Source of the DNA: Antedon mediterranea
Taxonomy: Eukaryota > Echinodermata > Crinoidea > Comatulida > Antedonidae
Reading direction: 5' to 3'
DNA length: 64,000 nt
Assembly: GCF_964355755.1 (NCBI RefSeq)
Contig: NC_092674.1
Location: 27,082,001-27,146,000 of the forward strand
Each line of letters opens with the position of its first letter. Within the stretch, counting starts at the first letter, position 1. Under the pieces are notes generated by a model that had not been told where the DNA came from, made no database searches, and was given only the letters and a program-made list of their open reading frames with translations. The translations under genes and the position numbers were made by a program. Shown piece after piece: positions 5,401 to 56,561 of the stretch.

Positions 5401-8400
5401 AAAAATGTCTAAAATTTGCTTGTTATAGACCAGTTGACAAATTTTGGAAATAATTTCAGTAAATTGTTATTTTAGAATAGGCAAACCAAAGCAATCTCTG
5501 TTTTTCAGGGTAAAAATGTCTAAAGTTTGCTTGTTTTAGACCAGTTGACAAACTTTGAAAAACTGCAGAAAACAAGTTTACAGAGAAGTCTACACTAGCA
5601 AACTTTAGTTTGCGAACTGGAGCAATCTCTGTTTGCCAAGAAAACATTTCCAAAATTTGTTTGTTATAGACCAGTTGACAAATTTTGGAAAAGAAGTCTA
5701 CACTAACAAAAAATCACTAAAGTGTTCAATTGTAGAATAGGTTGCTACAATAAGCATTTGTTCCTCAGAAGTACTTACTTTTTTTACTCATTGGTTAAGA
5801 GAGTTAATGGAAAGAAGGTCTTATTGCTATTTGAGAAGTATTCAGGTGGCACGTTTAGAAAGAATAACTTTTGAGCTAGGACAACAAACACTGCGCCATC
5901 AGTTGACTAAGCAAACATGAGCAAGTTTGGCAAGAACAGTTTCCAAAAGTTCTACCACCTAATAAACTGCAGAAAACTAGTTAGCCAAAACTAAACTTAT
6001 CTTACCTGACTAAAATACATGAAGATATTATTAGTTAAATTATAAAGTTATTGAGTATAATTGCTATGCCAGCGTGAATACACAGGGTAAGATAGAAGAT
6101 ATTTAAGAAATGCCTACTCGGGTTATGAGTGTTAACGAGCATGATACAGAAATAACTGTATTTTTATATTTATTAATTACATAAATTATTATTAATATTG
6201 CTTTTATTTGTAGTGGTTGCTTTTAATAACATTTACATTAATACGAATAATAATAAATCATTTTTAATAATAATATAATACGTTTTGTTTGCTGTGACCA
6301 TACTAATTTGAAATTATAATATTTGTTTTACTTCATCATTTCTTTATTCTTCCAGAAAAACTTTGCTTTACTAAGCTTTATTAACTTAAGAAGATACTAC
6401 TACCTTTTCATTTTTGCTTTTTCAATAAATATCTCATTTTAAAAGTTTTTTTGTTTCTAACATAATTACTTGATTTCAGTTAAAAGATAATTCGCTAGGA
6501 GCAGTTATATAATTACTATCAAGTTTCATTTATTTTAATTCCACCCAAATAAGGCTTAATTGGTGTTTTATTTAAACAAATACTCACTATACAATATTCA
6601 TCACATTTAATTTTTGTTGATGTAAATTTTATTTATTTTAAATTGTTTTGTTTAATCTATGAATGAAAAGTTATTAGATGGCTAACAATAATTTTTTTAA
6701 CAACTCAAAATTATATTTATATTACTGTAATAACTCAAACCCCTGGTGAGTAATGAATTGTAATTCACTGACTCTCTTACCAAACAATATGAAAATTAGA
6801 AACTTTTTTCTTGCAGTTCAAAAAGTCCTAATTTGTTTACCTTTATAAAATACATTGGGAATTACCAGAGATAGGCCGGCCCAATGGGGTATTATTGTGA
6901 GGTTTACTGTATATGGCAAGCCACTGAATTTTGTTTATATTTTGTGTAGTTCATTCTGTTAACATTACTAAATTGAAGTCAAAGGTCATTTGCTGTGGCT
7001 TTCCTTGTATTTATGACTACAATATGAATTTCTTGTGCCATTTTAGACAATGATACTTCTGGCATTGTTTGTTTTAATAAATATTGATTTTGATTGATAT
7101 ATTGATTTTCTTGTCATCTAGGATTTCGTTGTTCAGGAGACAACTTTACTTCGATATTTTTTTGGATCTAAAGGGAGAGAAACTTTAGACTTTAATACTT
7201 TCTGCCAGTAAGTAATTATCATCATTATCATCAGTATGGTACATAAGGCTACTGTTATATGAAACAAGAAGTTTTTTAATTACCTGATTATTTTTATCAT
7301 CCAGGTTTATGGATAATTTACAAACTGAAGTGCTTGAGCTGGAAATATCCTTTTATATACCACAGTAGACACTTTTGTGAGAAAAGAACATATGGTTTTT
7401 CATGATTTCAATTATTTATCTTTTCATTCATTTCATGCATTTTTATTTCTCTTAAAACATGTGATATATTTCTATGATTATCTTTAACTGACAAAATACT
7501 TTATGGAGTTTTCTAAAGGGATGCCGACCATTTCAGAAGGAGATTTTGCGCAGGTTCTGCTCCGCTACACACAGATTGACGAAGACGAGAAGCAGAGCTA
7601 CTTCGCCAGGGTTAAAGATAAGATTCGCCATGAAACGGTTAGCTAAGTTCATAATTTGACATCATCTTATGTCATTTAATATGAATTAATATTTCTAATT
7701 TGGAATATAATATAGTTTACATGGAATGATCAGGAATAAAAACAATGTTTTGCTAATGTTATGATTTATTACAGGGAATCTCCTTTGATGAGTTCAGAAA
7801 TTTCTTTCAATTTTTGAATAATCTTGATGATTTTGAAATTGTTATGAAGATGTATACATTTGCTGATCAATCAATCTCACAAGGTATTTGCTGTCATTTA
7901 AATCAAAAAAAAATTATAGTGTATATGAAGCTATAGACATATATAGGTGGGTGTCAAAGGTTAATAGTGGGTGTCAAAGGTTAATAGTGGGTGTCAAAGG
8001 TTAATAGTGGGTGTCAAAGGTTAATAGTGGGTGTCAAAGGTTAATAGTGGGTGAAAAAAATAAGGACTTGTTCTACAGAGGTGTTCTATAGTATACATAT
8101 GTACAGTATATTATTGGTGTTTTTATCTTTTTAATTATAATAGCCGAGTTTGAACGTGCTGTGCAGGTCACAACAGGTCACCAACTAGCACCTCATCTGG
8201 TTGATACAGTTTTTCAGATTTTCGACAAAGATGGTAAAGTAGAACTTATTCAGGGTAGTACAAGGTTGGACTTGACATTCCAGGTCATAGGTTGCATAAA
8301 TTGCCACACAGGTCATAGTTGGAAAATGTGACATCGAGTTCATATGTTTCATTACTTGACATGCCAGGTCATAGATTTCATTACTTGACATCCCAGGTCA

Positions 8401-8977
8401 TAGATTTCATTACTTGACATCCCAGGTCATAGATTTCATTACTTGAAATCCCAGGTTATAGGTTGCATAACTTGACATCCAGGTCATGTTTCATAAATGG
8501 AAAATTGAATTAATTAATTTCTGCATTTCTTTAGGTGATGGAAAGCTTAGTCAGAAGGAGTTCATAGGTGTCATGAAGAATAGAATTCATCGAGGTTTCC
8601 GAGTATGTACTGTCTATTAAGATAAATACATTAAAATTTGAATAGGCCAGTTTGTAGTTTTAATAATCTTATTCACATTTTCCTAACAAAATCAATGATA
8701 ATAATAAATACACAATTAAATTTAACCAAAAACCCATTGACATTGGTTTATTATTGGTTGAATTTAAATTAAATATGATATTACCATGAAGTTATATAAA
8801 CATGATGTATAAGATAATCAAATAAAAATGATATAAATTATTATTGTAAGTGGAGAGAGGGATTTTTAATTTTATTAATTTTTAATATATTCACTTTTGT
8901 AGGAACATTTGAAGAGTCCAGTTGGATGGTCTGGCTTTAAGGCGTGTGTAAAGCATGAGATTAAATATAGCGTGTAG
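2403..8977 (+). CDS. MICU3: MICU3-like mitochondrial calcium uptake regulator (3' part)
   Basis: EF-hand regulator of the mitochondrial calcium uniporter, acting in the intermembrane space. Exons: 2403-2450, 2662-2744, 3711-3758, optional 4264-4296, 7122-7207, 7305-7344, 7500-7637, 7775-7883, 8144-8233, 8535-8602 and 8903-8977 (stop TAG). The reading frame is kept across all junctions. The first exon encodes ISYTEYLFLLCILTK, a MICU-family signature. EF-hand loop 1 is DRDGNQRVDKKE and loop 2 is DKDGDGKLSQKE; both have Asp/Asn at positions 1, 3 and 5 and Glu at 12. Between them lie LLRYFFGSKG, FMDNLQTEVLELEF and DEFRNFFQFLNN, which match vertebrate MICU proteins. The C-terminus (NRIHRGFREHL..FKACVKHEI) resembles MICU3 more than MICU1 or MICU2. 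The N-terminus is off the window. Paralogue choice is inference; family membership is certain. Confidence 0.93.
2932..3053. mobile_element. mariner-type MITE, copy 1 (5'-truncated)
   Basis: The right end (tttaatagtgtagacagagc, then TA) and the interior (gatgtgccgatatatggaca) match three further copies in this window. The left terminal repeat is mostly missing. It lies in an intron of the MICU3-like gene. Confidence 0.65.
4264..4296 (+). CDS. Candidate 33-nt cassette exon of the MICU3-like gene
   Basis: A strong acceptor (gatttctttgcag) is followed by 33 nt encoding SSSQKSTKSHA, then a consensus donor (gtaagt). It is phase 0 at both ends, exactly as the flanking exons require, so inclusion or skipping keeps the frame. 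It would lengthen the linker after the first EF-hand, the place where MICU3 proteins have a long variable linker. Being short and Ser-rich it could also be a chance match; RNA evidence would decide. Confidence 0.45.
5245..5720. repeat. Degenerate tandem repeat
   Basis: Several diverged units share the core gaccagttgacaaactttg, preceded by a tgtctaaagtttgcttgtt-like stretch, and in places the inverted form (aaactttagtttgcgaactgg). Unit length is irregular, roughly 120-230 bp. It lies in an intron of the MICU3-like gene. Confidence 0.6.
7345..7499 (+). other. AT-AC U12-type (minor spliceosome) intron
   Basis: The intron begins ATATCCTTTT, the U12 5' splice-site consensus, and ends in AC at 7498-7499. 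A branch-point-like tctttaactgac (7480-7492) lies about 12 nt before the end. Removing exactly 7345-7499 joins ..EVLELE to FMEFSKGMPTISE, which aligns without a gap to vertebrate MICU proteins. No GT-AG pair gives this junction. Confidence 0.88.
7951..8053. repeat. 20-bp minisatellite, five copies
   Basis: Five perfect tandem copies of gtgtcaaaggttaatagtgg lie in an intron of the MICU3-like gene, ending in a partial unit. Confidence 0.95.
8265..8500. repeat. About 29-bp minisatellite, imperfect
   Basis: Repeated cttgacatcccaggtcata blocks are joined by gatttcatta or gttgcata. The central copies are nearly identical and the outer ones diverged. It lies in the next MICU3-like intron downstream of the 20-bp minisatellite. 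Confidence 0.85.
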
Positions 8978-10480
8978 TACATGATGTAGCATTCAAGAGA
9001 ACATTTCACAACAATGACTTTGGCACAATGAGTCAGTACTTTAACAATATTGAAACACATATATCAATGTAGACTTGCCCTAAGTCTGTAGTTATTGTCT
9101 GAAAACTGCAAAAATGTAAGATCAGGTATTGTACGTATGAAAGGCCATATGTGCCGAAATATTGACCTTCTTTATCTTTAAAAAAAAGTAATAATTTTGG
9201 TGTAGAACCTATTAGTATTATTATACAGATTTTAATATATCTATAATATATATATCCAAAGGCACATACTAAAGAAATAACAATGCTGTGGGTATCAGTG
9301 GCTGGATCTCAATGGAGATGCAAATAAAATAAGCAAAAAGCTACTAAACAAACAGTAACGTAAAACAGCCAGAAAAAAAGTAGTGTCAAGCATATGTGTG
9401 AAACACTATTCCTTCGTCAAAGCTAATTATAATATATGTACTGTATATAGTCTCCTGCTAAAGGTGCAATTTCTACCAATTGTTTTAGATAATTATATAA
9501 AAAAAAATTCTAGATACAGTAATGCATAAATTTGTCATTCAGTGTGTACTTTTTGTTTTAAAGGCAGAAAATGTGTTGGTGACCAATTTTCCCCCATGAA
9601 CAACGGCGTAATGCCACAATAGAAAAGTTCTTGACAGGCCCATTGTTTACTACAGGTGCTGATTTTTGTAAATATCTCTATAATACTGTACTTGAATGAA
9701 TTTTTTTTAATATAGCGCCCTCTATGGTTTGGTTATTCTTTTATAATTGCGTCAAGGTACTCATCAAACCATTTTCTGTGCAATTAGAAAATAATGCACC
9801 ACCGACTTCGTGTGTGTGTGTTCCCAATCTTGATCTAATTTGCATATCTAATTTGCATACTACTATTATATACATATACTAAATCTGTATATATAGAGGG
9901 CTCAATCTCTATCTCTATATATATAGCAATGTTCAGTATAGATTTTATTTGTTTCAATCAGTGAGCTTATATAGATTAGCTAGAGGGCAGACTTCAATGT
10001 TGTCACACAGAGCCATTATTTGATTTTTGATTTTATAAAACTGCACGGTACTTTAACAAAATATGTCCTGATTTATAATTTTTTCTTTTTAATATTTGTT
10101 ATTTTTTTTATAATACTAAATAATATTTGTAAATAAATATGGTTCACACTAAGATTATTTCAGTGTCGGGAGTTCGCCCTCTATACTGGTTTCAATGAAC
10201 TCTATGAAAATTATTGAGCATGACACGTACTTGAGAATATTTTATTTAATATCTTTTAACTTAATACTTTTTATTACTAACTACTATATGAATCTAAACT
10301 AAATTTATTAATATGTTAATTGTAAAAAGAGAGTTTTAGTAGTAGTTGGAAGAAATAAATGTTTAAACAATATAATTGTAATCATTTGCACTGAGGTAGG
10401 CATCTTGAAAACCACTTTCCACTTTGCTTGAGAAATCATTAAATTATTGATATTTCGACATAAATCAGGCATGGTCGGTT
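8978..10480. other. 3' flank of the MICU3-like gene, no gene seen
   Basis: It holds the probable 3'UTR, AT-rich sequence, TA microsatellite patches (about 9235-9255 and 9870-9925) and one dispersed repeat (9254-9425). No coding exon is recognised on either strand. Confidence 0.6.
9254..9425 (+). repeat. Dispersed repeat, copy 1
   Basis: It shares ccaaaggca..caatgctgtgggtatcagtgg, then ctggatctcaatggagat, with the reverse strand of 30815-30990. The downstream part (aaacagccagaaaa..) is also shared but diverged. The family is unclassified. Confidence 0.7.
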
Positions 10481-13400
10481 TTATTTTCAATTATTTGTTC
10501 AAAATGGTAAGTAAAGTCCGCTTTTTCACGTATAGTACAGGGAAATGTTCAACAAATGTTGACCTTTTTATTTTCAATAAAACTGGCCATATATCGAAAA
10601 TTGACCATTTTTCAACCTTTTTATTTTCGATAAAACTGGTTACTATAGCATAATTGACGTGCGCAAAACGCATTATTTGACTCTGCGCATGTTTATTTTG
10701 CTATAGTAACCATTTATGTCATCAAATAGATAAAACTGGTTACTATAGCATAATTGACATGCGCAGAACCTAATATTCGACTCTGCTCATGTTTATTATG
10801 CTATAGTAACTATTTATATCAAAAAATAAAAGGGTCGAAAAATGGCAATATTTCGAAAATTTCCCTGTACTATAGTACAGGGATTTTTTCAAAAAATGGG
10901 AAAATTTCGACCTTTTTATTTTGCGTTAAAACTGGTTACTATAGCATAATTGACATGCGCAGAACCAAATATTCAACTCGGCGCATGTTTAGTATGCTAT
11001 AGTAACTATTTACATCAGAAAATAGATAAAACTGGTTACTATAGCATAATTGACATGCGCAGAACCTAATATTCGACTCTGCACATGTTTATTATGCTAT
11101 AGTAACTATTTATATCAAAAAATAAAAGGGTCGAAAAATGGCGATTTTTCGAAAATTTCCCTGTACTATAGTAAAGAGATTTTTTCCAAAAATGGGAAAA
11201 TTTCGACCTTTTTGTTTTTGATAACACTAGTTACTATAGCATAATTGACATGCGCAGAACGCAATATTCGACTCTGCGCATGTTTATTTTGCTATAGTAA
11301 CCATTTATGTCAGAAAATAGATAAAACTGGTTACTATAGCATAATTGACATGCGCAGAACCTAATATTCGACTCTGCGCATGTTTATTATGCTATAGTAA
11401 CTATTTATATCAAAAAATAAAAGGGTCGAAAAATGGCAATATTTCGAAAATTTCCCTGTACTATAGTCCAGGAATTTTTTCAAAAAATTGCAAAATTTAG
11501 ACCTTTTTATTTTGCGTTAAAACTGGTTACTATAGCATAATTGACATGCGCAGAACCAAATATTCGACTCGGCGCATGTTTAGTATGCTATAGTAACTAT
11601 TTATATCAAGAAATAAATAAAACTGGTTACTATAGCATAATTGACATGCGCAGAACCTAATATTCGACTCTGCACATGTTTATTATGCTATAGTAACTAT
11701 TTATATAAAAAAATAAAAGGGTCGAAAAATGGCAATATTTCGAAAATTTCCCTCTACTATAGTACAGGGATTTTTTTTTTAAATGGCAAAATTTCGACCT
11801 TTTTATTTTGCGATAAAACTAGTTACTATAGCATAATTGACATGTGCAGAACCCAATATTCGACTCTGCGCATGTTTATTTTGCTATAGTAACCATTTAT
11901 GTCAGAAAATAGATAAAACTGGTTACTATAGCATAATTGACATGCGCATAACCTAATATTCGACTCTGCGCATGTTAGTTATGCTATAGTAACTATTTAT
12001 ATCAAAAAAATAAAAGGGTCGAAAAATGGCAATTTTTCGAAAATTTTCCTGTACTATAGTAAAGGGATTTTTTCCAAAAATGGCAAAATTTCGACCTTTT
12101 TATTTTTGATAAAACTAGTTACTATAGCATAATTGACATGCGCAGAACGCAATATTCGACTCTGCGCATGTTTATTTTGCTATAGTAACCATTTATGTCA
12201 GAAAATAGATAAAACTGGTTACTATAGCATAATTGACATGCGCAGAACCTAATATTCGACTCTGCTCATGTTTATTATGCTATAGTAACTATTTATATCA
12301 AAAAATAAAAGGGTCGAAAAATGGCAATATTTCGAAAATTTCCCTGTACTATAGTACAGGGATTTTTTCAAAAAATGGGAAAATTTCGACTTTTTTATTT
12401 TGCGTTAAAACTGGTTACTATAGCATAATTGACATGCGCAGAACCAAATATTCAACTCGGCGCATGTTTAGTATGCTATAGTAACTATTTACATCAGAAA
12501 ATAGATAAAACTGGTTACTATAGCATAATTGACATGCGCAGAACCAAATATTCAACTCGGCGCATGTTTAGTATGCTATAGTAACTATTTACATCAGAAA
12601 ATAGATAAAACTGGTTACTATAGCATAATTGACATGCGCAGAACCTAATATTCGACTCTGCACATGTTTATTATGCTATAGTAACTATTTATATCAAAAA
12701 ATAAAAGGGTCGAAAAATGGCGATTTTTCGAAAATTTCCCTGTACTATAGTAAAGGGATTTTTTCCAAAAATGGGAAAATTTCGACCTTTTTGTTTTTGA
12801 TAAAACTAGTTACTATAGCATAATTGACATGCGCAGAACGCAATATTCGATTCTGCGCATGTTTATTTTGCTATAGTAACCATTTATGTCAGAAAATAGA
12901 TAAAACTGGTTACTATAGCATAATTGACATGCGCAGAACCTAATATTCGACTCTGCGCATGTTTATTATGCTATAGTAACTATTTATATCAAAAAATAAA
13001 AGGGTCGAAAAATGGCAATATTTCGAAAATTTCCCTGTACTATAGTACAGAGATTTTTTCAAAAAATTGCAAAATTTAGACCTTTTTATTTTGCGTTAAA
13101 ACTGGTTACTATAGCATAATTGACATGCGCAGAACCAAATATTCGACTCGGTGCATGTTTAGTATGCTATAGTAACTATTTATATCAAAAAATAGATAAA
13201 ACTGGTTACTATAGCATAATTGACATGCGCAGAACCTAATATTCGACTCTGCACATGTTTATTATGCTATAGTAACTATTTATATCAAAAAATAAAAGGG
13301 TCGAAAAATGGCAATATTTCGAAAATTTCCCTGTACTATAGTACAGGGATTTTTTCAAAAAATTGCAAAATTTAGACCTTTTTATTTTGCGTTAAAACTG

Positions 13401-16010
13401 GTTACTATAGCATAATTGACATGCGCAGAACCAAATATTCGACTCGGCGCATGTTTAGTATGCTATAGTAACTATTTATATCAAAAAATAGATAAAACTG
13501 GTTACTATAGCATAATTGACATGCGCAGAACCTAATATTCGACTCTGCACATGTTTATTATGCTATAGTAACTATTTATATAAAAAAATAAAAGGGTCGA
13601 AAAATGGCAATATTTCGAAAATTTCCCTGTACTATAGTACAGGGATTTTTTCAAAAAATTGCAAAATTAAGACCTTTTTATTTTGCGTTAAAACTGGTTA
13701 CTATAGCATAATTGACATGCGCAGAACCTAATATTCGACTCTGCGCATGTTTAATATTCTACAGTAACTATTTATATCAAAAAATAAAAGGGTCGAAATA
13801 TAGCAATTTTTCGAAAATTTTCCTCTACTATAGTACAGGGATTTTTTTTTTAAATGGCAAAATTTCGACCTTTTTATTTTGCGATAAAACTAGTTACTAT
13901 AGCATAATTGACATGCGCAGAACCCAATATTCGACTCTGCGCATGTTTATTTTGCTATAGTAACCATTTATGTCAGAAAATAGATAAAACTGGTTACTAT
14001 AGCATAATTGACATGCGCATAACCTAATATTCGACTCTGCGCATGTTAGTTATGCTATAGTAACTATTTATATCAAAAAAATAAAAGGGTCGAAAAATGG
14101 CAATTTTTCGAAAATTTTCCTGTACTATAGTAAAGGGATTTTTTCCAAAAATGGCAAAATTTCGACCTTTTTATTTTTGATAAAACTAGTTACTATAGCA
14201 TAATTGACATGCGCAGAACGCAATATTCGACTCTGCGCATGTTTATTTTGCTATAGTAACCATTTATGTCAGAAAATAGATAAAACTGGTTACTATAGCA
14301 TAATTGACATGCGCAGAACCTAATATTCGACTCTGCTCATGTTTATTATGCTATAGTAACTATTTATATCAAAAAATAAAAGGGTCGAAAAATGGCAATA
14401 TTTCGAAAATTTCCCTGTACTATAGTACAGGGATTTTTTCAAAAAATGGGAAAATTTCGACTTTTTTATTTTGCGTTAAAACTGGTTACTATAGCATAAT
14501 TGACATGCGCAGAACCAAATATTCAACTCGGCGCATGTTTAGTATGCTATAGTAACTATTTACATCAGAAAATAGATAAAACTGGTTACTATAGCATAAT
14601 TGACATGCGCAGAACCTAATATTCGACTCTGCTCATGTTTATTATGCTATAGTAACTATTTATATCAAAAAATAAAAGGGTCGAAAAATGGCAATATTTC
14701 GAAAATTTCCCTGTACTATAGTACATGGATTTCTTCAAAAAATGGGAAAATTTCGACCTTTTTATTTTCCGTTAAAACTGGTTACTATAGCATAATTGAC
14801 ATGCGCAGAACCAAATATTCAACTCGGCGCATGTTTAGTATGCTATAGTAACTATTTACATCAGAAAATAGATAAAACTGGTTACTATAGCATAATTGAC
14901 ATGCGCAGAACCTAATATTCGACTCTGCACATGTTTATTATGCTATAGTAACTATTTATATCAAAAAATAAAAGGGTCGAAAAATGGCGATTTTTCGAAA
15001 ATTTCCCTGTACTATAGTAAAGGGATTTTTTCCAAAAATGGGAAAATTTCGACCTTTTTGTTTTTGATAAAACTAGTTACTATAGCATAATTGACATGCG
15101 CAGAACGCAATATTCGATTCTGCGCATGTTTATTTTGCTATAGTAACCATTTATGTCAGAAAATAGATAAAACTGGTTACTATAGCATAATTGACATGCG
15201 CAGAACCTAATATTCGACTCTGCGCATGTTTATTATGCTATAGTAACTATTTATATCAAAAAATAAAAGGGTCGAAAAATGGCAATATTTCGAAAATTTC
15301 CCTGTACTATAGTACAGGGATTTTTTCAAAAAATTGCAAAATTTAGACCTTTTTATTTTGCGTTAAAACTGGTTACTATAGCATAATTGACATGCGCAGA
15401 ACCAAATATTCGACTCGGCGCATGTTTAGTATGCTATAGTAACTATTTATATCAAAAAATAGATAAAACTGGTTACTATAGCATAATTGACATGCGCAGA
15501 ACCTAATATTCGACTCTGCACATGTTTATTATGCTATAGTAACTATTTATATCAAAAAATAAAAGGGTCGAAAAATGGCAATTTTTCGAAAATTTCCATG
15601 TACTATAGTACAGGGATTTTTTCAAAAATTTCGACCTGCGCATGTTTAGTATGCTATAGTAACTATTTATATCAAAAAATAAAAGGGTCCAAAAATGGCC
15701 ATTTTTCGAAAATTAGTACAGGGATTTTTTTTTTAAATGGCAAAATTTCGACCTTTTTATTCTTCGATAAAACTAGTTACTAAAGCATAATTGACATGCG
15801 GAGAACCCCATATTCGACTCTGTGCTTGTTTATTTTGCTATAGTAACCATTTATGTCAAAAAATAAATAAAACTGGTTACTATAGCATAATTGACATGCG
15901 CAGAACGCATTATTCGACTCTGCGCATGCTTATTATTCTTCAGTAAACAGTTATGTCAACAAATCAAAAGGTCAAAAATTGGCAATTTTTCAAAAATGTC
16001 TCTGTACTTG
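10480..16010. repeat. Palindromic satellite array (about 296-bp composite unit, higher-order)
   Basis: The array is built from two hairpin modules. Module A (about 86 bp) runs from gttactatagcataattgac through acatgcgcagaa to its inverted complement ctgcgcatgt..attatgctatagtaac. Module B (about 95 bp) runs from aaaagggtcgaaaaa to ttttcgacctttt around the perfect 20-bp palindrome CCCTGTACTATAGTACAGGG. The usual order A-B-A gives a 296-bp period, with 592 bp also common. About 35 A modules are countable. A longer order is visible: the block near 11755-12630 recurs near 13826-14700, offset 2071 bp. An extra A module at 12512-12610 breaks the period. Edges (10480-10730, 15600-16350) are degenerate. 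Short open frames inside repeat identically with the satellite and are not genes. Confidence 0.93.
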
Positions 16011-16480
16011 GAATTTTTTCCAAAATCGGCCAAATTCCTATATCATAAATTAGCATGCACAAAAAAAAAATTTCTGCGCATGCTACCTCAAATGTATTTT
16101 GAAAAGGGTATATATTGGTCATTTTTTTAAAATCCATGTTCTAAGGTTTTTTCGGAAAATCGGCCAAATCTCGACCCTCATTTTTTGGCATGTGCAGAAT
16201 GACACAATGTTTTTAAAAATAGATATTTTGGCCAAACAGTACTTTGAAAAAATAACTATTTTCCAGAATCTCCTTTACGTGTCTTTCTATTTTAATTCCA
16301 CCAATATGGCGTATGTGATGTGCAAAACAGTAATAGTAATGGGATTTTTTTTTAATGTGAACTAATTTCTATAGTATTCATAATGCACATTTAGCGCGCC
16401 ATACACCCTGACCTGGATCGACTGGAGCTGTAAACAATGCTTCTTTGGCAGGATCGGGCACTAGATCAACTGACACAAGA

Positions 16481-19400
16481 ATGCTTATTACTTCTCATTT
16501 AGGCAATGTGATTTGGGTGACTTTTCACCATCATGGAGAAACATGCTCATTAAAGGCACAGGCATTCCAGTTACACCTACAAAGGGAGTTCATCCCCATT
16601 GGAAATGTCCCATGCTATGACATCCAAGCCAATCATTTACATTGTGTTGTACATCACTTAGTTGAAAATGATAGTACAGGCTTGGTTACGTTAAACATGG
16701 TATTACATGCAGATTTAGATGAAAAATTCACTTACTACATTCTGCAAGTAACCACTCATGCAATTAAAATGATATCAAAGTTTAATCTACCTTATGAAAT
16801 ATTGCCAGATCATGCCAATCTTACAGATGGACCAAATGTTGTCTGGTTGCACGGAGGTAACATCTTTGTTTATAATGCTACTGATAAATTGCAGAAAGTT
16901 GTACCTAGATATAACTCAACTGCTGGTGGTGGTGATCTTTTCTGGTCTGGAATGATTGGCACAGATCTTGTGACAATAGGCAGAATAAAAGAGAAAAATG
17001 ATGACGTTGGTATTGATCAACACCTGATGTCTTTCCCAAGTACCTATCGCTTTATCAAAATACTTTTGAGAGGTGGATTACAAAAGAGTTTTTTCAAACT
17101 TATTCCGGATGTTTATGCAGATATTGTTACGGTTGTAAATGTGTGTGATGATTCTGTTATTATCTGCACAAAAGAAAATCAGTTGATATCATTTCAAAAT
17201 GGAAAGACAAAGAATCTCTGTCGACTACCATTTAAAGACGCTGTTGCAATGGATGTTGCTGTTGTGGCTGGTGGCAAGAAATTGATTGTCATTTCTTCTC
17301 GCTGTTCAGAAGTTTGCTGTGTTTGGTCTAACACTTTTGAGGTATTGTTCACTAACAATGTCAATGATAATCCAAACGTTTTTAGGTTGCATCGCGAATA
17401 AACGCTAGTAAAGTGAGGTTTTTTACATAAGAATTAATTATGAAAATAAAATTTTTATTTAAAATTAACACAAAAATCACTTTCGAAGAGCTTCTGCTTT
17501 TAACGAAGCTAAAAATTTTGCAACCAATCGTAGCGCAGGAAATAAGTTGTCATGCATTCATGAGCACTCATGTGAATCAAATAGCTTAGTAGACAAGCGA
17601 TGGAATTAAAAATTGTAGCTATTCGCTCTTGTAGTAGAAAAGGTAGTGATTTTTTCTCTCCTGTAACATTGGATTTGCATTAACAATTTTTCCTAGTGTA
17701 AAACAGACGTTTTGCTGCTTCAGATATTGTTACTTTTACTTTTTACAGATTGCAGCAAGTTGGAACGGTATCTCCAGAGTTCTTGTAGATGATTTTTACA
17801 ATTATGGCAGTGATCAAATTCTTCTTCTTAGCACCAACTCTATTCACACCAACATTTTTACAGGATTCATGTTAACAGATTTACTTTGCTATAACATCAA
17901 AGAGGTAAATTGAATGATTCTTGGTCGCGGAAGATGTATGATTAAATTTGGATATCAAATTGTTTACTGTTTTATTTTCAGGGTGATGGAGATGTAGTTG
18001 AAGACGGCACAACTGTTTCACAGAACAACTTGACATCTGCTGTCAGAGCTCTACAAAAGCGAATGCAGGTATACCATCCTACATGTCAAGTATCGCGCAT
18101 CTGGCATGAGTTTCACGCTTTTTCAACAATCTCAATCTTCATTTTATTAAACCAAACTTTTAAAATTCTGTCGTTTATGAGGCATAGAATCATCAATCCT
18201 AGGCCAAAAACAAGTAAAACAATGTACCATCAGGTGTAGTCTACAGCAGGGAGATTATTTTACATCTCCCTGTCTACAGTATAAATTGAATGTCCTTAAA
18301 TATATATATATTTTTTTCCAATAGGTTAGTGTTGCTGCCGTGAAACAAAGCCGAATACAGCTCACAGAAAAAGTTAGAATGATTCATCAATCCCACAAAG
18401 CATTAGTCAAAATGGCAACTGACATGAATGATAATGCAGACCGTTCAGATCAAATGGTAATGCAATTAAAGTTTACTGGTTTTAAAGTTACTTTTCTTAA
18501 ATTGGTAACTAATATCGAAAGAATTATCCATTATAAAAAGTAAACTAAAATTGATTAATAAATTCTAAAATGTTATTTCTTTTCTTTTTAAAGTCGTTGG
18601 TTTGTCTTTATGATGGATTAAGCCACAAAAGCATGTCTGGTACTAATGCAGTGCAGATAGATAACAAGAATACCGAGTATCATCCTTCTGTTTCCTCACC
18701 ATGGCAACGTCTTGTAGGAGATGAGTGGATTGTAGCAATGGAAGTTGAAAACACAACTCGCAAGTAAGTAGAAATACCAAGCAGGTTATAGGCAACAACC
18801 AAACTAAACCCGATTTTGTTCAACTAAAGTCATATCTGACACTATAAAGGTTATAGGCCACAACCAAATTGACCCACCAGAGTGTAACGACCACAACCAA
18901 GACTAAATGTCAATAGCTATAACATTGTTTCTCATTTCAGATCCATTCAGAAGTTGGCGATTTCCCTGATTCATAGAGATAGTGGTCAACATCCCATTGT
19001 CTTTAAAACTAGGAGTAGTCTGTATGTACAAAACAAATTCGAACTCAAAGGAACCATTTTTGAGGAGCCTGTACAGAAGCGTTTGAAACCCCAACCTAAC
19101 AACCCTAAGCCGCTAAAAACTATTTTACATCCAACTGAACGTGCATTTATATGTGCAGTTACAAAACTACCATCTTTTGTGCAGTCATATTTGGTGTGTA
19201 ATTTAGTGTTGCACTGGAAATCATGTACGGAGGACATGTCTCGTCCACTTGAAAGCATCGGTGTTGGAAGTGTTTCTCTGACAGCCTCTGATGTAGCCAA
19301 GGGTGACCTGCAAGTCACTTTGCAAGAATTTTGTGGTATGTGTAGCCTAGCATAAATGTAATATATACGCAGTTTTTAGATACTGTACCAGACGTTTCTT

Positions 19401-37351: not shown

Positions 37352-40300
37352 TTAAGCTGTGAGTTCAGTAGCTGCATCCTTTGCTAAGGATTCACCAAGA
37401 GATATGACAACAAGAGGTGAAAGTTCAACCATACGGTCTACCATAGCTGGCAAGTTTGAGCCATCAGCAGCTTCAGAAATGTTGTGGTATACCGTTTGCT
37501 GCTCGGAAGGGTTTGCCTCGATGATTCCAACCATCTCTTCTACAGCGGTTGCAGATTCCTGGAACATCACTGGAACAGTGACAGAGATCTGTTTATCAAT
37601 ACTTTCACCAGTGACCTGTTTATCAATACTGCCATCAGTGATCTGTGCATCAACACTGCCACCACTGATATGTGCATCAACACTGCCGCCAGAGATCTGT
37701 TCATCAATACTGCCACCAGTGACCTGTTCATCAATACTGCCACCAGTCTTTTGAGGTGCAGTTCCCTGACTTGCTTTGAGCAGCTTACGGGCTCTTTTTT
37801 TTAATGTCGATACTATGGGCAACGTAAAAACTTTACAAAGCTCTGCATACGCTTTCGGGCTTTCCTTGTACACTTTCATCGCCAGTGACATTACACCCTC
37901 TTTATACCGTCTGCCCTCTTTCTTATTAACTCCAGTTATCTGAGATACAAAAAAATCTAGAGTTGTTCCACTAATATGGTTTCTAGCTAGCTTTATTAAA
38001 TGCTCCTCAGAATTATCGCATTCTATCGTCTTCGACACTTTATCTTTTAGAGCTTTTACTTTTTTTCGAAGTCGGCATATTTGTACTCGTTGTCTTGTAG
38101 AAGTTTTCTGGGAAGCTAGACACCGTTTAACCAATGTTTGCATTTTATATCTCTCCATCTGGTGGCTCAAGATTTCTTTTCCCATCTCTTCCCTCTCATT
38201 TAGCAACGATTGTATCTGCTGATCTTTGGTCAGCTTGGGTTTTTGATTCGTTGATTGAACGTAGCCAACTTGTTTTATAGGTACAACTGAAACAAAAAAA
38301 TAACAGTATTAAATATAACAATATATTAAATATAACAACATTTAATAGAACAACATTAAATATAACAATATATTAAATATAACAACATTTAATAGAACAA
38401 CATTAAATATAACAATATCAAATATACATATACTTAAAAATAAAATACTATGAATGCAGGTGCAAAGAATGTGCAGAAGGTATTACTTCATTATTAACAT
38501 CATTACATTTTAAGAAAATGATAACCACTGCACACTGTTTTGTTATCACCTTTGTTATCACATTGTAAAGCTGATAAATGATAACCACTGCACACTGTTT
38601 TGTTATCACCTTTGTTATCACATTGTAAAGCTGATAAATGATAACCACTGCACACTGTTTTGTTATCACCTTTGTTATCACATTGTAAAGCTGATAAATG
38701 ATAACCACTGCACACTGTTTTGTTATCACCTTTGTTATCACATTGTAAAGCTGATAAATGATAACCACTGTACACTGTTTTGTTATCACCTTTTATACAT
38801 TGTAAAGCTGCTTGTTCATCTGATAATAATCTCTCTCTAAATATTATACTACAAACATTGAATGATGTACGTCATTTGAGACACAGCCATGTAAAGCTCG
38901 TCTACGCATCAAACCACAGTAGTTTGACAATAAAATGTGACATGCCAAATATGTTAGTGATGTGCCCAAATATGATAGTGATATGACATCATCCTTATAT
39001 AGTAACATCACATTTTTTTTGTCATATAAAGTTTGATAGTGTAGACAGAGCTTAATGAGACAAACTTAAGGTTTGTTTGAATATATTAAAAACATGGTTT
39101 TGATAAGTAGGTATAAAGACAGTTTTTTTTTCAAGAAAGTTTTTTTTGTATAAAATGATTAGAAAAAAACTTCACCTATTGTACTCTGTTGATTTCGTTT
39201 GTCCACATTTAACTTCTGGATAGTGACAGTATTTGCGGGCTTGTTTGTTTTGTCCAGAACTTCCTTCAGGATAATCACAGGATTGTTGTTTCTCGATGTT
39301 TGGTCTTTATCATTCTTTCGTACATAATCGTGATCTTTGAAGATTGAAGCACCTTTGTAAAAAAAATGAATATTTTGTTAACATTCACAATATCATTTCT
39401 ATATTGTTTTCGGTCTATTTTAATATATACATAACAAACAAAAAACTGAAAATGGGGAGACCAGCGCCAACCTAATTGAACTTAATCACTGTAGCTGCTT
39501 GTTTATTGGTAATATAAGTAAGGAATATATACATTTTGAATCAACTATGAATGTCTACAACTTTGCAGAAAATGATTTTTTTTTTTAAAGGAAATTCAAA
39601 TTTTTCCAGAACTTTATTCAGAGAACATTTTTGTCAGTGTTACTGTTAGATAGTATTTATTTTCTAAATTAACAGAAAAGGCTATTTCATATATTTTTTA
39701 AAATCAAATATGATGCATTTGCATGGAAAAGACTCGTATTTCATATTATCAACAATGATATAAATTTTAATCGTTAAATATTTACTTCTTTTATTTTTAA
39801 TTTTGTTCTGTGGTATGTCGTTATCTTCCTCATTTTGTACTCCAGCAACTAGCATCTCCTCATTTTGTACTCTGCTGGCCACTAGCATCATCTCCTCATT
39901 TTGTACTCTGGTCATCACTAATGTCTGCTCGTTTTGTATTTTGGCCACCAACTTCTGCTCGTTTTGTATTTTAGCCACCAACTTCTGATCATTTTGTACT
40001 TTTCCCACAAATACCCGTCTTTTTGGTAATCTTCGTGGCGGATTTGGAACATCAAAGAGAGTCGGAATTGCATTCCAAACCAGTTTATTTGAAAATTTGA
40101 ATTTCTGGGATTCCTCAAAATGTTCTGCACATAACCTACAATTTCTGTGCAAATATTCAGAACTTTTTCCCCTGTAGTCTTTCCTTCTGCAGTTGTCAAC
40201 CCATACAGCACACCTATATAAGTATATATATAAACAGTAAATAAAACATAGAGAGTAATACTTTTATTATCAATTTATTTTATTTAGTTGCTCACTTTAA

Positions 40301-44062: not shown

Positions 44063-47000
44063 TTACACATACTCTTCTTCAATTGTATGGTTTATATCTT
44101 GAGATATTTTTGTACAAGAATCCGAATCAGAGTCTTGTAATTGTGAAATGTCTTTAAAAACTCCAACTAGTTTCTCGAATGCTGGTCCCCAGTTAAGCAA
44201 CTGATCCCAGTTAAATAAACCGTTACGTTTTGAATGCGGAAGATCGTCTTCCGACATAAACAACGTGCTTAATGATCCTCCAATTGAATTAAAACCTTCG
44301 TAATTGTAAGCGACCGTAGAGTCATGATCAATTTCATCAGTTTCATTTTCTACTTCCGCTAACCGCGAGAATATTAAAGTCCCTGGTTCGAGTTCATTTC
44401 TCGTCATAGGATGTTCAGACTCGGATTCAAATTCCGAGCATGTGAAAGAGTCATTGCTCTCGTCTGATGTCGAGTCAGGCGGTTCTAACAGACGAGTTGA
44501 ATCAATAAGAACGCTGCTCTTCACCCCTGTTTCGTCACCACTACTTAACGACGATAAATTGTCCATAGTACTAGCGTGACTGCCCATCATGAGGTCAGGT
44601 CGCGCAGTGTTCAAACGCTTAACCTCGTCCACAGTCAACCCAACTGGTGCATCGTTGGGAATACTATTTGGAGTGCGAATTTTTGTCTGTGATTGCGATT
44701 TTAAATTTAGTTGATTCAATGCCGGACTTGATGTGCGTACAGTGGGGGCACTATAAACGCTATGTTGCTCGCTTGTTAGACTATATTGCGAATTAGCTCG
44801 CTTTTGTAGCAAGTCCTTTGTCGGTGATGTAGGCTGGCTATTGTGGACAGGACTAGCACGAATGTTTGGTTTGAAGCCTGCAGGACTCTGTCTAGCTGAC
44901 TGTACTGGTGTACTTTCAGTCGGTAGGTAGGGGCTAGCCCGTAACAATGGATTCGGACTTTGCCTGGACATTTGGCTAACTGGGCTCTCACGATGCATAC
45001 GAGCTAAAAGTGGATTAGGACTACGTTTTCCATGATTATGCTTTCTACTTCTTTTATCCATGTTGTGATAATTTCTATAATAATATGTCGCTTCAACATC
45101 TGAGGGCGCTATACTGCTAGCGTTTTCAATATCATAATGTTCAGGAACTATTTGTTCATCGATGTTGTCTTCTATCCCGATGGTAACATCGTCTGTCTCC
45201 ATTATCATATTTCTAGAAATTGGGCTTATATTTGGATATTTATAACGATTAGATTCATTTTCTAATATGTCTGGTTGTCGAAACGTAATTTCCATATGAC
45301 CTTTGACCATCGAAGGGTCATCAAATGCCATATTGTAGTGACCTGGTTGTTGATTCATATCATCCTCAGTTGTTGAGAAAACCGAAGGACCATTTGGTAT
45401 TCCAATTTTCTTCTCCTTTCGCCGTCTCCAGAAGATGAAAAATAATAATGCAGCAATGATTCCGGCAAGAATGATAAAGACAACGATAAGGATGATAACA
45501 AGCGAATTATCGGTATCACTTGACGAAACTTGGCACATCGGCGCACTTACATCATCCACAATACAATTCTCATTTTCGTTACAGACTGTATCACCGCATT
45601 TTGTTTGTGATGTACACTCGTACTGCGTTCCCTTATCAATGCATGTTTCAGATTCAGGACATGGGTTGGATATGCACAAATCAACACCGACGCATCCCTT
45701 GGCAGCATTTTCTGATACGGTAGCTTCAAATGCTTCATTACTGCCATCAAAGGGTAGCTCATCACCATTTAGACTAAAGCTGTCCACGCAACCTTCCAAC
45801 CCTACAATGAAAACAATAATAATAGCAAATAATACAACAATAATAAAACTATTGTAACCATTTGTTAATATAGTTTTTTCAATAAATATTGTATATCAAA
45901 TTTGTTATCAAACAAATGAATATAGACACTCAACTCACCAGTGACTGATATTCCATCCACTATAAGATCATTCTTTGTGCCACCAAGTGACATCAAACTG
46001 ACATCAACACCCGCAAAGTCTGGTGGTGTCTGGTCAAAAGTCTTGCTCTCGACTACTTCATCAAGACTGAGGGCAATATGGCGATTGTCACGTGTAATGC
46101 TGGCATTGTGCCAAGTTCCGCTGTTACACTTTGGGTTTGATATGGTAATGCCACCAATGGTAGAGGACAACGATCCATAGGAATAGGTTAACTCTCCATT
46201 TACAACCTAAAATATAATTTTTTTAAATACTTATTATTAGTATATATTTTACACTTTCTTCTTATTTGTTGAGTACTATACTCCTTTCACAAAATTCTAA
46301 AGTTCCATACACCAAGACGCACACCATTATGGTGTAGATGCTCTGATGAAATAATCATCAAAATGATCAATGAACCATGAACAATTGATTTACCTGTAGC
46401 AAAGTGAACTCCTCCCCTGTCTTCACTAACAACAGTAGACCATCATCAGCTTGTGTACGGAACTGAATCGTCACTGATTGTTTGTTGGTTGCTCTTCGTT
46501 TGCGATTGTTGGTTTTTGCTGAGTCTAGTTGTTGTTGTCTTTTATAACTTTCCTTTACAGTGTACTCCACGTATGCACCGGAACCAAAGGACACTGGCGC
46601 AGGAACTAGAACAAAATAAAGAGTTTGATCAATTTGACATTAAAAAAAAATGTTGATTCAAAATGTATTTATCTATTGGAGTCATTTATTGGATTAAATT
46701 GTTTTTGTAGTTTTTTAACAAAGTTTATATAGTAGAACTCTATTAAGGGGCCAAAAATATTTTAACACTGCAGCAAACTTCTATTAAGGGGACACTTTAG
46801 GGACATAACCGTACCTTCATTGCAAGTAACACCTGCTGTCCCGTCTTCACATTTGCATCTGTATGACCACCATTCATCCACACATACACTTTGTCCCGCA
46901 CACGATTGCTCATTGCACGTGGTCAGATCTCGAGGACAACCTTCGATTGTTCCTTCAGACCGCAAAATGTTGGTGTCACCAAGACGCTGACCGTTAATAT

Positions 47001-50000
47001 AGATGTCACGTACGCAGCCAACGAAATCAGCGGTGGACACTTGCCAATATCGATCCGTCACATTTTTTATTGACATTACGCCACCAATGCTAACTGGTAC
47101 ACCTTGCAAATTTAACCCTCTAAAATGAAAACATAATTAAAATATTAAATTTCAAAATATATTTTACATGATCTCTTAGTACATTCATTACCATTTAGAT
47201 ACATTCTTTAGGGTGGAGGTCATGTAGCCAGAGACCCAAACAGAGCCAGATTCTTAACCTGGGCTTCTGGGATAGTTGAACAGGTAGAGGTCAATTTGTG
47301 TATTAATTTTAAAAATTATATATACAGTACATTATTTTATGTGTCCTAAGGGATTTGATTGATTATTCTAACTTTACACCAAATTGTTACACATTAAAAA
47401 CAAGCCGACATGTCCTTCAAGTTTTCCAAAAAACATTGACACCAGCTCTTGGCAAAGTCACGTCTTATTTGTACACATATGCAACGCAAACATCATACTT
47501 AATTTTCTCTTCCTTCGCATCACTTCAAATCTGGAATGCTAACTATAAAACTCATGTCCCAATAGCATTTGTCTTCTACTTGTTAATATTTTGTTGTTGT
47601 TTTTTGTTCCCAGGCCAAGAGTATTTAGATTTTACTTTTGATAATTCTTTATTTTTGACTTACCGTGCAAGATTTGCTGACTTAGAGGCACGGCACATAT
47701 TGGTGACATCAGGGCTAGGGCAGTCAGTATCAAACAAAACCAAGTCACACGTCTAAAATGAAATTAATAAATAAAAATTATTTTAAAATGTTTATTACAG
47801 GAGAGTACAGGATTGCAGGGGAGAAAGAGAATAACTTTTAAGTTTATTTCTGTGGCTAGTAGTAGTAACCAGAGGGGAGCTTACTAGGTGGACCTTCAGA
47901 ACCCCTAGCCTCATTTTAATGAAATATTTTTCAGTTAAACTAAATATTAAGAGATTTTATCTGGGATTACCACGGTTCTCGGGAAACTAGGCCTACCATG
48001 GTGGCCGACAAAGTAGCCTGATTGCATAAATAGAAATTACATGGTTCTTGATAGAATACAGCAATAACTGGAGTGAATGATAGAATAACAACAAGCAAGC
48101 AATTAATAGTACTGATACACCTGTGCTGTGGAAACCTGTCAAATTAACTTTACAATGGAATTTTTCATACTTTGACAATCACAACTTGGGAATGGGGACA
48201 AGTATAAATACTTTAGCATATGTCTAATGTAAAGTGCATTGAAATATGGGTTATTATTACATCAACATTATTACATAATTTCTAATTATGAAAATATTCA
48301 TTACATAACCATATATGGTTACATAATTCCCAATTATGGGCATGTCACATTATTTTTTTTTTAAAGAAATGACGGTTTATATTCTGTAGATCAGAACAAT
48401 TACTTTTAATAAGTTTGTGCGCAACAAAATATAGACATCTCTATTTATGATTAACATAAAAATCTGCAATGTCTGCGATGTATCAACATCATACCAACAA
48501 TAATGTTTATTATGATTGGTAAGCATGAACGTGACATAAAGTCGGTATCTTGCATGGTAACTTTGATACAAACACTCTTAATAGCGCTAGTAATTTGGTT
48601 ATAGTTGCGGTGAAGCGCTAAAGATTATGTCTTCTGTGACCAGTTAACTGTTGTACTAACTTTCTCCTGCTAATTCTACAATGTAACCTTGAGTGTTTTA
48701 TTCCCTCACAATTTATAACCTAGCCCCCAAGAGGTGTGTTTAAATTGAAAACAGCAACTACAGAGGGGAGGCAATATTTAGTGGATAGACATGATGTGAT
48801 CTGTTAAATGAGAATTTCCATGTTTTATTTGTGTGGAACGTGACCAAATCAATTGTATCAGTTTTGATGTAACTAACAAGAGACTGATTAGAAATAATAA
48901 ACAATAAATATTAACAAAATATGAAAGTGTCACTAAAATATTAATTTCTTCTTATGTATGTATAAAAAGCCTACTGATTATATTTTTACAAAACATTTAA
49001 AAAAAAAGGATATTTTTACTTCGGATTATTTTTTTCTATCAGCTATAACTAAATTCATACTTTATTGCAATAAAAAAGCCTGTACAGTTATAACAATTTT
49101 GACAAGATCCCAAACAATTGAAAAAAACTGTAGTATGTTTTTACCTAATCTTGGATTATGCTTTAAAAAATAATAATTTAAATATTATATGAAATTATAT
49201 TTTACATTTATATCAAAGAAAAATAAGGATTCATAAATATTAAATTGTAATAATTCTATGAATGAAACGTGATGTGGCCGTTTTATAGTAACAAGCTTAA
49301 TTTAACTTTACTGTCTTCTTCCAAAGCAAACTTATCATCTAAACCTTCGATCCCAATCAGAACTTTATCACCCATAACCAAAGGTAACATCCCTCTCTCC
49401 TAGGGGTGAAATCTAACCCCCTTCTCTATGCTTTGTCAGAAACTAAAGTAGCTAAACCTTCACCTAAACTAAGCATACAAGAAAGATCCTAAGAGATTTT
49501 TATGAAGTATAACCAAGCTTTATTGTACTTGATTAGAAACGTATTATTCCCTGGGTGAAAATTTGTCCCATTCTCATCTTTGTCAGCAGAAATCACAAAT
49601 TAAAATCTCACCTAGATTGTCATTTAAACCTTGTAAAGACCCCAAGAGAATGAGTAGATTAAAGATCTCTGTAGCCCCATACCAAAAAGTGTGAAATAAA
49701 AAACCTTGATTTGGTCACGTTTTCAAATTGAATGTGTTTAACAATTTTATTCTATGTCAACACATTTAATAAAATAAATATCTAGTATTTGGAATTTTAA
49801 AAACAATTACTAAATTGTTCAATACTTCAACCTTTATCAAAATCAAATGGTTGATCAACAAATTGAATAATATAATTTACTACCGGATTTTGGATAATGT
49901 ACAGTTCACATGCACCCAATATGTTAATGATAAAAACACATTTCCATAACATATAAAGATTATAATATTTGAATTTCTGATTTATCACATTATTTATTCT

Positions 50001-53000
50001 CTACAATTGACCCTTTATTGAGTTTTTTCTAATTTCAGAAATGCGAACAGTTAACAAAAATGTGTTTTTGTACAAAAGAAATGTTAAAAAAACATAAATA
50101 TCAAAAGCTGTTGTGGAATATATTATGAAAGATAATACAATATAAAATTTCTAATTTATAATACTGTACATCTGTTAATGTTCCATAGTGTTTCATATTA
50201 CTACACGTTTGCCTCAAAGCTGTTTCTATCTGGTGATTCCACGCAAAATGTCAAGCTAATTACTGAAGCTTTGGAACCTGACTTTTTTATCGGCCACACA
50301 ATCTAGATGCAAGTGATACCTATCATTCCTAGGCCCACAAGCAACTCGTGTTATTCAGTTGTTCATTTGATCCCATACCCTTGCAATGTATCTCTACTGG
50401 TACAAATTATATCTAGGCCGTGATAAAATAGTTGTTCAAAGAACACCAGGTGTTGGATGTGCAAATTGACCTAGTAACACGACATCATAATGATGAGGAC
50501 TTTTAACATGAAATATTATTATTTCTAAATTAATTTCCAAATTATTTCCATTTTATTTACTTGCAGAACACTATAATTAATGCAGTAACCTACCAAACTC
50601 ACAATATGTATCAACACATGCCAATTTAGTATCACAAATTTGCACCAAGAATTTTCATTTGTTTACTGCAGTACACAGTTAGTTTACTGAGGAAAAACAG
50701 TATAAAATGGGATAGAAAGTGTTGTTTTTTACCTGTTTATTTTGGTTGGCTTGCACAGTATGCCACTTCCCATCACTGACCGTCTTTGTTATCTTTAATT
50801 GTATGATGTCATCACCATCAGAGTATGATAGTTGTAGTTGTCCACCAATAATCTCAAGTGCCAAGAAGTTTGAAGAAAAGGATGTTGTGCCATCATGGTT
50901 GTAGAACAGCAGAGCATTCTCCTGTACTGTTGTAAACTCAATGGTGATAAAGTTGGATGAAGATCGTATAGTACTAGAAAACTCCATAAAGGAACCGCCT
51001 TCAAAACCAACACTACTGAATTGGCAGTCATTTCCTTTCTCACCAAAGTTACACTCGCACTGGTAGGTTCCACCTTGTTCTCGGCAAACACCACCATTTT
51101 GACACGGTTGGGATGTGCAAGGCCCTTCCTCGCAATAATTGCCAAAGTAACCCAATGGACATTCACATCGGTAAGCATTTACCAGATCAATACATGTTCC
51201 ACCATTCAAACAAATGTCACCATTGCAGTCATCGAGATTTACTTCACAAAGATCTCCAGCAAACCCACTTAGACACTGACAACTAAAGGATCCAGAACCA
51301 TCTATACAAGTCCCTCCATTTTGGCATGAGACAGACTCACACTGATCGACTTCTAACTCGCAGAGAGTTCCATGGAATTCAATGGCACATTTACATTCAA
51401 ACTCACGGGTGGTGTTTCGTGCAACAATAATAATCTCATTTGTATCCACAACGATTTGATCATTGTACATCTGGATGTAGTCGCTGCAAACTCCTTCATT
51501 TTGACATGGGTTTTCTTGACACGGACTGAAATCAATAACCTCAATGTCAACATTAGATTGGCTCTGAATTGTGTTGATGTTACTACGAAAAAAGGCTGTA
51601 GCTTGTGACCGAGATATATATTGTCCGTTACTTCTCTCAATTGCCACTAGAAGATCAAGACGGTTACTAGTCTCATCCTTTAAACTGAACACAATGATGC
51701 TCTCTCCATTATTGAGCAGACCAGAAACCGATGTCAGGAAGTCATTGTAAGAATTCAAGACAAAATTTCTGGCGTTAGTGTTTGCAAGACGAAGTGTTAA
51801 GCTGCTTAGTAAGGCATTGCTTCCAAATGATTCAAACTTGACAGAAAAAATTGACTGAACTTCATCATGTATTCCATCATTCCCATTGATTGTTAATTGA
51901 TACTGGTTCTCACCAGCGTGAGATGTCGAGTGCAGTTCACAGCCTGATGAAATGCTAAAAATCGAGCCACTACTAGGAGAAATTAAACGACAATTGAAGG
52001 TATCATCAGTATCCATATCATTTGGTTTTACCTCTGAAATGATTCCACCAGGAAAAGTGTTCTCAAACGTTTTCACTTCAATTCTAGCTGTTCGAGATGA
52101 AGAAGGATTATCATTTTCATCTCCAATTTGAACACGCAATGGTGACAATGATGTCTGCTTTGGGAAACCAGAATCAGAGATTTCTATTAAAAGAGAATAT
52201 TCATTCCTTGCTTCACGGTCGAATACAGTGGTAGTTGTCAATATTCCACTGTTAGGAGCTAAGTTAAAGTTACTTCCTCCAGAATAGATTGAAAACGTGA
52301 ATGGAGCTTGAGGTGCCACATCAGGATCGGATGCAACCAATGTCATAACAGTGGATCCAGCAATTTGATTTTCCAGTACTACTCCTATTGTAGTTTCAAG
52401 TACAGGTCCATTATCATTGACATCAGTGACAGAGATGACTACAGAAGTATATCCTGTTTGTGGTGGATTTCCGGCATCTGTTGCTGCCACAGTTAACGTG
52501 TATTCATCAATAGTTTCTCGATCTAAATTCTTATTTACCATTACCACACCAGCCGAGTCTACCTTAAATGCACCATCAATGTTACCAGCAGAGATTGAAT
52601 AATTGAAAGTCCGGTCAGATAGCAGCTCATCATACTCTACAGCTGTTACAGTTACAACAGATGTCCCTGTCATTGCATCCTCACTGACAGTACCAGTGTA
52701 GTGATCTGACAGAAAGAATGGAGGATCATTTGCATCTGTGATGTACATAGTAACTGTTGCCTCAGCAACATTATCTCCGTCAATTTCTCCTGCATTCTTA
52801 GCCAGGACTGTCAGAATAACTTGGTTCTCAGTCTCTCTATCGAGTGTGCCATGAGCCATAGACACAAACAATTCTCCAGTGATTTCATTGATGGAAAATC
52901 CTTTGTCAGTGTTTGCTCCAACCAGGTAATAGAATACTTTTCCATCTTCTCCTTCATCGGCATCTGTTGCTATGACTCGATCAACTACAAAGCCATCAGC

Positions 53001-56000: not shown

Positions 56001-56561
56001 TCATTGATGTCTCCCAGACGAACAACAACATTCGCTGATGCTGTTCTAGAGTTGGATGGGTTCAATGCATTTCCATCTATGGCAGTGACAACCAAGTTGT
56101 ATGTTGATTGTGTTTCTCGATCTAATATTCCTGCTGTGATGATCTGGCCGGTTACTGGACTTATGGTGAAGAGTGTGCCAATGTCATCATTAAGTTGATA
56201 TCTGGAAATATTAAATAATATACAAAGTAAAATATGAGTAGGGATGTAGAGAAGTCTAAGGTTGAGTGGAGAACAATAAAACAGAACTTTTATGTATCCA
56301 TAATTTTGCTGTGTTGAAAGTAAGTTGGGTGGGAAACTTTGAAGGTGAATGACAATAATGGAATAATATGAATACGATACCTTATATTTCCATTATCTCC
56401 AACATCGGCATCTGTCGCACTGACTAGTAGCACATCCTCACCTATTTGAACATTTTCATCTACCGTGACGGTGTATGTGTTTGGATCGAACACTGGACTG
56501 TTATCATTCTCATCTCCAACAATAATGTTGACAGTACTTGTACCAGTAAGAGAAGGAGATC
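44063..56561 (-). CDS. FAT4: FAT4-like giant protocadherin (3' part)
   Basis: Cell-surface cadherin; Fat family members bind Dachsous and act in planar polarity and Hippo signalling. Exons: 56561-56381, 56201-55939, 55507-50733, 47752-47664, 47119-46815, 46605-46394, 46206-45939, 45801-44063; 2610 aa in frame. About a dozen cadherin repeats show DxNDNxPxF linkers (VTDINDNAPVF, LTDINDNPPVF). Then come four EGF domains (SCQNGGTCIDGSGSFSCQC), laminin G 1, an EGF (CNEQSCAGQSVC), laminin G 2, one or two more EGF-like modules, a membrane helix (LVIILIVVFIILAGIIAALL) with stop-transfer RRRKEKK, and about 460 cytoplasmic residues. EGF4-LamG-EGF-LamG order is that of FAT4 and fly Fat. Near the C-terminus LNWGPAFEKLVGVFKDI looks conserved. 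The gene runs off the right edge; a preceding exon of phase 1 is required. Paralogue assignment is inference. Confidence 0.93.

Follow-up and report, generated by a model that had tools for sequence, protein, structure and literature searches.

The window analysed here, the whole 64,000-nucleotide stretch, carries a MICU3-like gene (last recognisable coding exons at 7488-8620, + strand), of which the best PDB match is MICU3 (E 2e-12), in agreement with the gene assignment made in the earlier note. Downstream, from 16.4 kb, lies the beginning of a FANCB-like gene, with its first long coding exon at 16412-17401 (+; matching a chain named FANCB at E 1e-19). Between the two lies a tandem array of hairpin-forming modules, A and B, spanning 10531-16190 (+) with its decayed edges; the last recognisable MICU3-like coding exon ends near 8.6 kb and the array is therefore intergenic. 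Decayed yet recognisable copies were found from 10531 to approximately 16190, slightly past the end given previously (16010). Other features of the window include a perfect 20-bp tandem repeat (5.3 copies, 7947-8053) in an intron of the MICU3-like gene, a 29-bp repeat (8270-8496) overlapping the next exon region of this gene, a 60-bp tandem repeat of five copies (38516-38810; 98% identical) that is open in several frames, a reading frame with a THAP domain (39682-40263, - strand; Pfam E 2.5e-8) and a large cadherin gene (44063-56664, - strand) that has numerous cadherin repeats together with laminin-G and EGF domains, and a cadherin motif at the C-terminus.

Tandem Repeats Finder (TRF) reported a 296-bp period with 17 copies at 10610-15628, and a string of fuzzy anchors placed along the array read BAABAABAABAABAABAABAAABAABAABAABABAABAAB..., both of which bear out the 296-bp A-B-A units first described. 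The homogeneous section (10629-15561, +) contains 34 A modules in an AAB pattern, with the 296-bp period and a 591-bp dimeric alternation. Module A occupies about 100 bp per repeat, with a stem of about 80 bp; a representative copy at 11320-11419 (+), a palindrome with a 14-nt loop, gave a DNA fold of -27.9 kcal/mol (z -10.6), matched by none of 200 shuffles. The representative B module at 12306-12400 (+), with its core CCCTGTACTATAGTACAGGG at 12342-12361, gave -17.3 kcal/mol (z -4.7), again matched by none of 200 shuffles. The perfect 20-bp core of B noted earlier is present six times in the array (10863, 12342, 13329, 13625, 14413 and 15300), the remaining B copies being altered relative to it. 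The local duplication of one A module was also recovered, as A modules at 12404 and 12504, the latter (12504-12603, +) being the extra A of an AAA run in the anchor string, and one unit lacks an A and has only a single copy (13687-13786). The distal edge (15628-16190, +) is diverged and consists of a truncated B, A copies at 15766 and 15866, and decayed remnants. The statement that nearly every base lies in a potential stem proved too strong: 69% of bases were paired in the array, compared to 58% in a control stretch, while the local minimum-energy fold of the array had approximately double the energy of that of the control.

Structure of the elementary unit

A and B had been taken for two unrelated palindromic modules. 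Instead, they are the two dyad centres of one imperfect palindrome of approximately 197 bp, arranged as half-B + A + half-B. Whenever a palindrome is repeated head to tail, two dyad centres result, A corresponding here to the middle of the unit and B to the junction between units. Palindromy was judged by fold z-scores and arm identities, and the plain 195-bp form at locus L044 (C9:19.18-19.19 Mb) gave the clearest case. This locus contains 21 units with a mean column identity of 95.8%, of which the consensus folds into one end-to-end hairpin with arms 82% identical (shuffled mean 56%, maximum 64%). Arm identity averaged 78% in 16 units of 194-201 bp, and the monomer is thus composed of inverted halves, as evidenced in arm identities and the consensus fold. 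In the window, the elementary palindromic monomer survives as a single full unit of 196 bp (13630-13825, +). More generally, arrays that appear to consist of hairpins only can be read in this way, because a tandem palindromic unit yields two kinds of hairpin.

The idea that A and B are separate miniature inverted-repeat transposable elements (MITEs), one inserted within the other and then amplified in tandem, is very improbable and has been largely refuted. It fits the palindromic and AT-rich nature of both modules, as well as the presence of other repeats inside some arrays, such as the 1.8-kb insert in L014, which turned out to be an unrelated tandem repeat when its sequence was read for a transposase or reading frame. 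However, base pairing is continuous across the A/B border in the L044 unit consensus, no target duplication separates the B halves from the A halves, and the junction core TACTATAGTA is identical in 57 of the 90 scored junctions at 20 loci, which is not what differing insertion sites would give.

The array itself is most likely without function. A role for the hairpins, either as small RNAs made from an array that is transcribed or read through, or as cruciforms binding proteins, might be considered given the very stable folds of both modules, the somewhat higher conservation of stem columns than of loop columns (0.954 vs 0.890) and the location between two genes, but we regard it as quite improbable. 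Double Watson-Crick changes numbered eight, compared to 8.3 +/- 2.6 in shuffles, showing no compensation beyond chance, and broken pairs were not fewer than in shuffles; the stems are therefore not maintained by selection on pairing. All Rfam matches were to hairpin models and below threshold, which is what any hairpin would be expected to give. A microRNA hairpin array was rejected, given that nothing exceeded the Rfam gathering threshold and compensatory pairing was absent, as was a retrozyme or ribozyme satellite, with no hammerhead or other self-cleaving motif above the Rfam threshold.

Higher-order units and local homogenisation

The 296-bp A-A-B unit consists of two palindromic units, with the inner ~96 bp of B missing from one junction. 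Across the loci, 346 A-A linkers contained either a full B (mostly 115-130 bp) or belonged to a short class with at least five types of breakpoint, mostly locus-specific. The type TCAAAA(G) was observed at many loci, TCAAAAAATAGATAAAA in the window array, L009, L010 and L012, and TCAAAAAATAAAAGGG in L015, L019 and L033; L021 and L029 carried a 39-bp form, and L027 one of 59 bp. Comparison of these breakpoints suggests that the centre of the B palindrome has been lost repeatedly and independently in different arrays. Palindromes are prone to losing their centres, and the formation of a hairpin or cruciform during replication would make the centre of B deletion-prone and so give rise to the higher-order A-A-B unit. 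The arrays provide a natural series from full palindromic units through differently deleted junctions to higher-order units, in which the effect of palindrome instability on satellites outside heterochromatin may be studied.

Above this level, the window array displays a two-unit alternation of 591/592 bp, a finer pattern than those in the earlier note, and an internal duplication. The higher-order offset of 2071 bp reported before was confirmed as part of this duplication: at that offset, 11691-12600 matches 13762-14671 with 98.5% identity, and an offset of 2267 bp continues the match for 12501-13360 with 99.1% identity. A block of about 1.7-1.9 kb has therefore been duplicated, with copy 1 at 11691-13360 (+) and copy 2 at 13762-15627 (+).

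Homogenisation proceeds locus by locus. The nearest neighbour of an A module lay in its own array in 71% of cases, compared to 4.5% by chance, and A modules at array edges were the most diverged, the best match rising from 0.967 at the edge to 0.995 inside (Spearman 0.46, p 6e-17). Edges are thus older than middles, and blocks are duplicated within arrays. Nearest relatives in the same array together with diverged edges are the usual signature of local unequal exchange, and the arrays evolve in concert within each locus. Repetitive arrays can be misassembled and their copy number is uncertain, but an assembly artefact is an extremely improbable explanation, as the palindromic unit structure was found at dozens of loci on different chromosomes with varied periods, orientations and linkers.

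A dispersed family and its possible ancestry

The window array probably belongs to a family of short satellite arrays (1-10 kb) found throughout the genome, a judgement that we make jointly for the whole explanation, namely a dispersed family, a palindromic unit, origin of the A-A-B form by deletion, ancestry in mobile elements and a likely lack of function. The genome-wide search for the modules that had been suggested earlier located the family at hundreds of places: the exact B-core 21-mer CTATAGTACAGGGATTTTTTC occurred 787 times, mostly inside local arrays, and its reversed control not at all. First-look candidates numbered 799 for A, 1324 for B and 1170 for a further monomer, C; counts from these genome searches are lower bounds or rough. 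All 20 randomly chosen B sites were inside arrays. Extrapolation from 13 arrays, which total 42.4 kb and hold 32 exact 21-mers, gave a rough estimate of ~1 Mb for all arrays of this kind, or some 0.3% of the genome. As most loci were selected for their resemblance to the window array or for an intact B core, the numbers are biased towards younger copies.

In the complete lists for chromosomes C1 and C2, 28 of 40 loci were located in the outer chromosome halves (p 0.017); the corresponding figure was 51 of 72 in the biased list for the other chromosomes. Exact B-core sites were absent from 23-35 Mb of C1 and 16-36 Mb of C2, the arrays favouring distal arms, and best-hit lists suggest the same mid-chromosome absence on C4 and C7. 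The monomers are arranged head to tail in tandem, as in a satellite. A classical heterochromatic or centromeric satellite was rejected, given that long localised blocks are absent and the 1-10 kb arrays are spread over the chromosomes. No published description of the motifs was found in the open-access papers searched, consistent with the previous remark that no named satellite was known to have such a layout.

Two further monomers resemble A at their ends. Monomer C (~185 bp) forms arrays of its own at C4:1.81 Mb and C2:37.29 Mb, and monomer D (~181 bp) is found at L028. The three monomers are 70-86% alike over their right 75 bp, with the inner right part of the C-D pair only equalling the shuffled maximum, and 78-94% alike over their left 32 bp, while similarity of the middles is at shuffle level. 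In A, the inner left arm is 86% identical to the monomer's own right arm when the latter is reverse-complemented, suggesting that the A monomer may have arisen by inverted duplication of the right end common to all three. As in MITEs, the outer ~30 bp form terminal inverted repeats, which pair in A and C and more weakly in D. MITE families have ends in common and different middles. The ancestors of the monomers would then be non-autonomous mobile elements bearing the end GTACAGGGATTTTTTCG, a descent to which the common ends and differing middles of A, C and D, the rare solo C units and the occurrence of a non-coding core flanked by arrays on both sides (see below) all point. Neither a target-site duplication nor a transposase was found, and we therefore infer this ancestry from these features. 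Of the MITE origin put forward earlier, a MITE-like ancestry hence appears plausible, with ends in common and middles not, whereas the nesting of one MITE in another does not agree with the continuous pairing of the unit.

Unlike ordinary MITEs, the units hardly ever meet unique DNA at their ends. Four end patterns were searched and 27 sites fetched, with ends almost always internal. The TACTATAG end gave 18 matches in the genome, CAGGG without TA gave 7, and TAGTACAGGG gave 41, mostly junction variants; GTACAGGG without A gave 100, and among the 20 of these that were read no more than one or two were non-internal, L077 being clear. A TA-target model was rejected on these grounds, and so was an ordinary MITE, in view of the absence of a target-site duplication and of mostly solo copies. 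Two independent solo C units were identified, L048/L049 on C10 and L050 on C4, neither with a clear target duplication. At C10:1.28-1.33 Mb (L048, L049 and L060) a C-type unit lies within another tandem repeat, ..cctaagtcacacag/tgacttaggcag.., such that the empty site can be seen in the neighbouring repeat units.

M, a non-coding repeat of 560 bp with no long reading frame, was detected at about 79 candidate loci (for example, L061:1252-1811 and L055-L074); the window array contains no M. Of 20 fetched loci, 19 had array next to M, 15 of them on both sides, and in 16 the right junction was ...GACAGGGCAGTA|TAGTACAGGG or closely similar to it. The flanking arrays are of differing types and in both orientations when compared with foldback (FB/Tetris) elements. 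M resembles the core of a composite mobile element and is joined to B-type arrays, and its near-constant right junction and flanking arrays suggest that part of the family spreads, or has spread, as a composite unit. A stronger proposal is that a composite non-autonomous element of A-array, M and C-units, either foldback/Tetris-like or pearl/Helitron-like, was the main vehicle of dispersal, with arrays lacking M as its decayed or expanded pieces. In addition to the arrangement around M, the seeding of arrays by elements of this kind is known from Tetris and from oyster satellites (PMC4079207, PMC8268682). We nevertheless hold this proposal only tentatively and consider it somewhat doubtful, because candidate M loci are few against ~1000 array regions, C units follow M in both orientations, and neither a target duplication nor an outer terminus was found. 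Moreover, apart from two unrelated repeats, no flanking box was common to the 62 array edges compared, and no conserved left and right boxes of the Helitron/Helentron (pearl) kind were found among them. At or near the array edges of L012, L016 and L035, a GACCGACC-rich repeat with ..GTCGCGTGGACGCGACTC.. was observed.

It is also conceivable, but rather unlikely, that the palindromic junction box GTACAGGGATTTTTTCGAAAAATGGCC and its inverse act as a recombination or integration signal through which the unrelated monomers A, C and D and the core M are swapped as cassettes from one short array to another genome-wide; if so, satellites would spread via a common joint and not a common monomer. Our best reading remains that the arrays constitute a dispersed, transposable element-derived, dyad-symmetric satellite superfamily that is locally homogenised. 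The family allows the exchange of parts between mobile-element-like cores and satellites to be studied.

Relation to known satellites

Dyad-symmetric satellites have been described in Tribolium madens (TmSat2), T. brevicornis and Trichogramma brassicae, which likewise have a monomer of inverted halves foldable as one hairpin, and derived higher-order units (PMC13081366). The Tribolium satellites are major (peri)centromeric components, whereas the Antedon arrays are kilobase-sized and dispersed on chromosome arms; the unit measures 385-1061 bp over the three examples, compared to about 197 bp here, and the present family has three monomer types with common ends (PMC13081366). In Drosophila virilis, the foldback transposon Tetris and the TIR-220 satellite offer a parallel, in which AT-rich repeats of ~200 bp placed in tandem beside a middle domain seeded arrays (PMC4079207). 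Unlike in Tetris, no flanking domain was found at the array edges, nor a target duplication of 8-10 bp, and the repeat is itself a palindrome (PMC4079207). Scattered satellites of oyster and other bivalves reside in Helitron/pearl-type elements (PMC8268682, PMC5139131). Compared to these, the unit in Antedon is a long palindrome and conserved boxes are absent from the 62 edges, but the short arrays scattered over the genome, some of them tied to an element core, are similar, and the array junctions of phBglII400 also fall within a palindrome (PMC8268682, PMC5139131).
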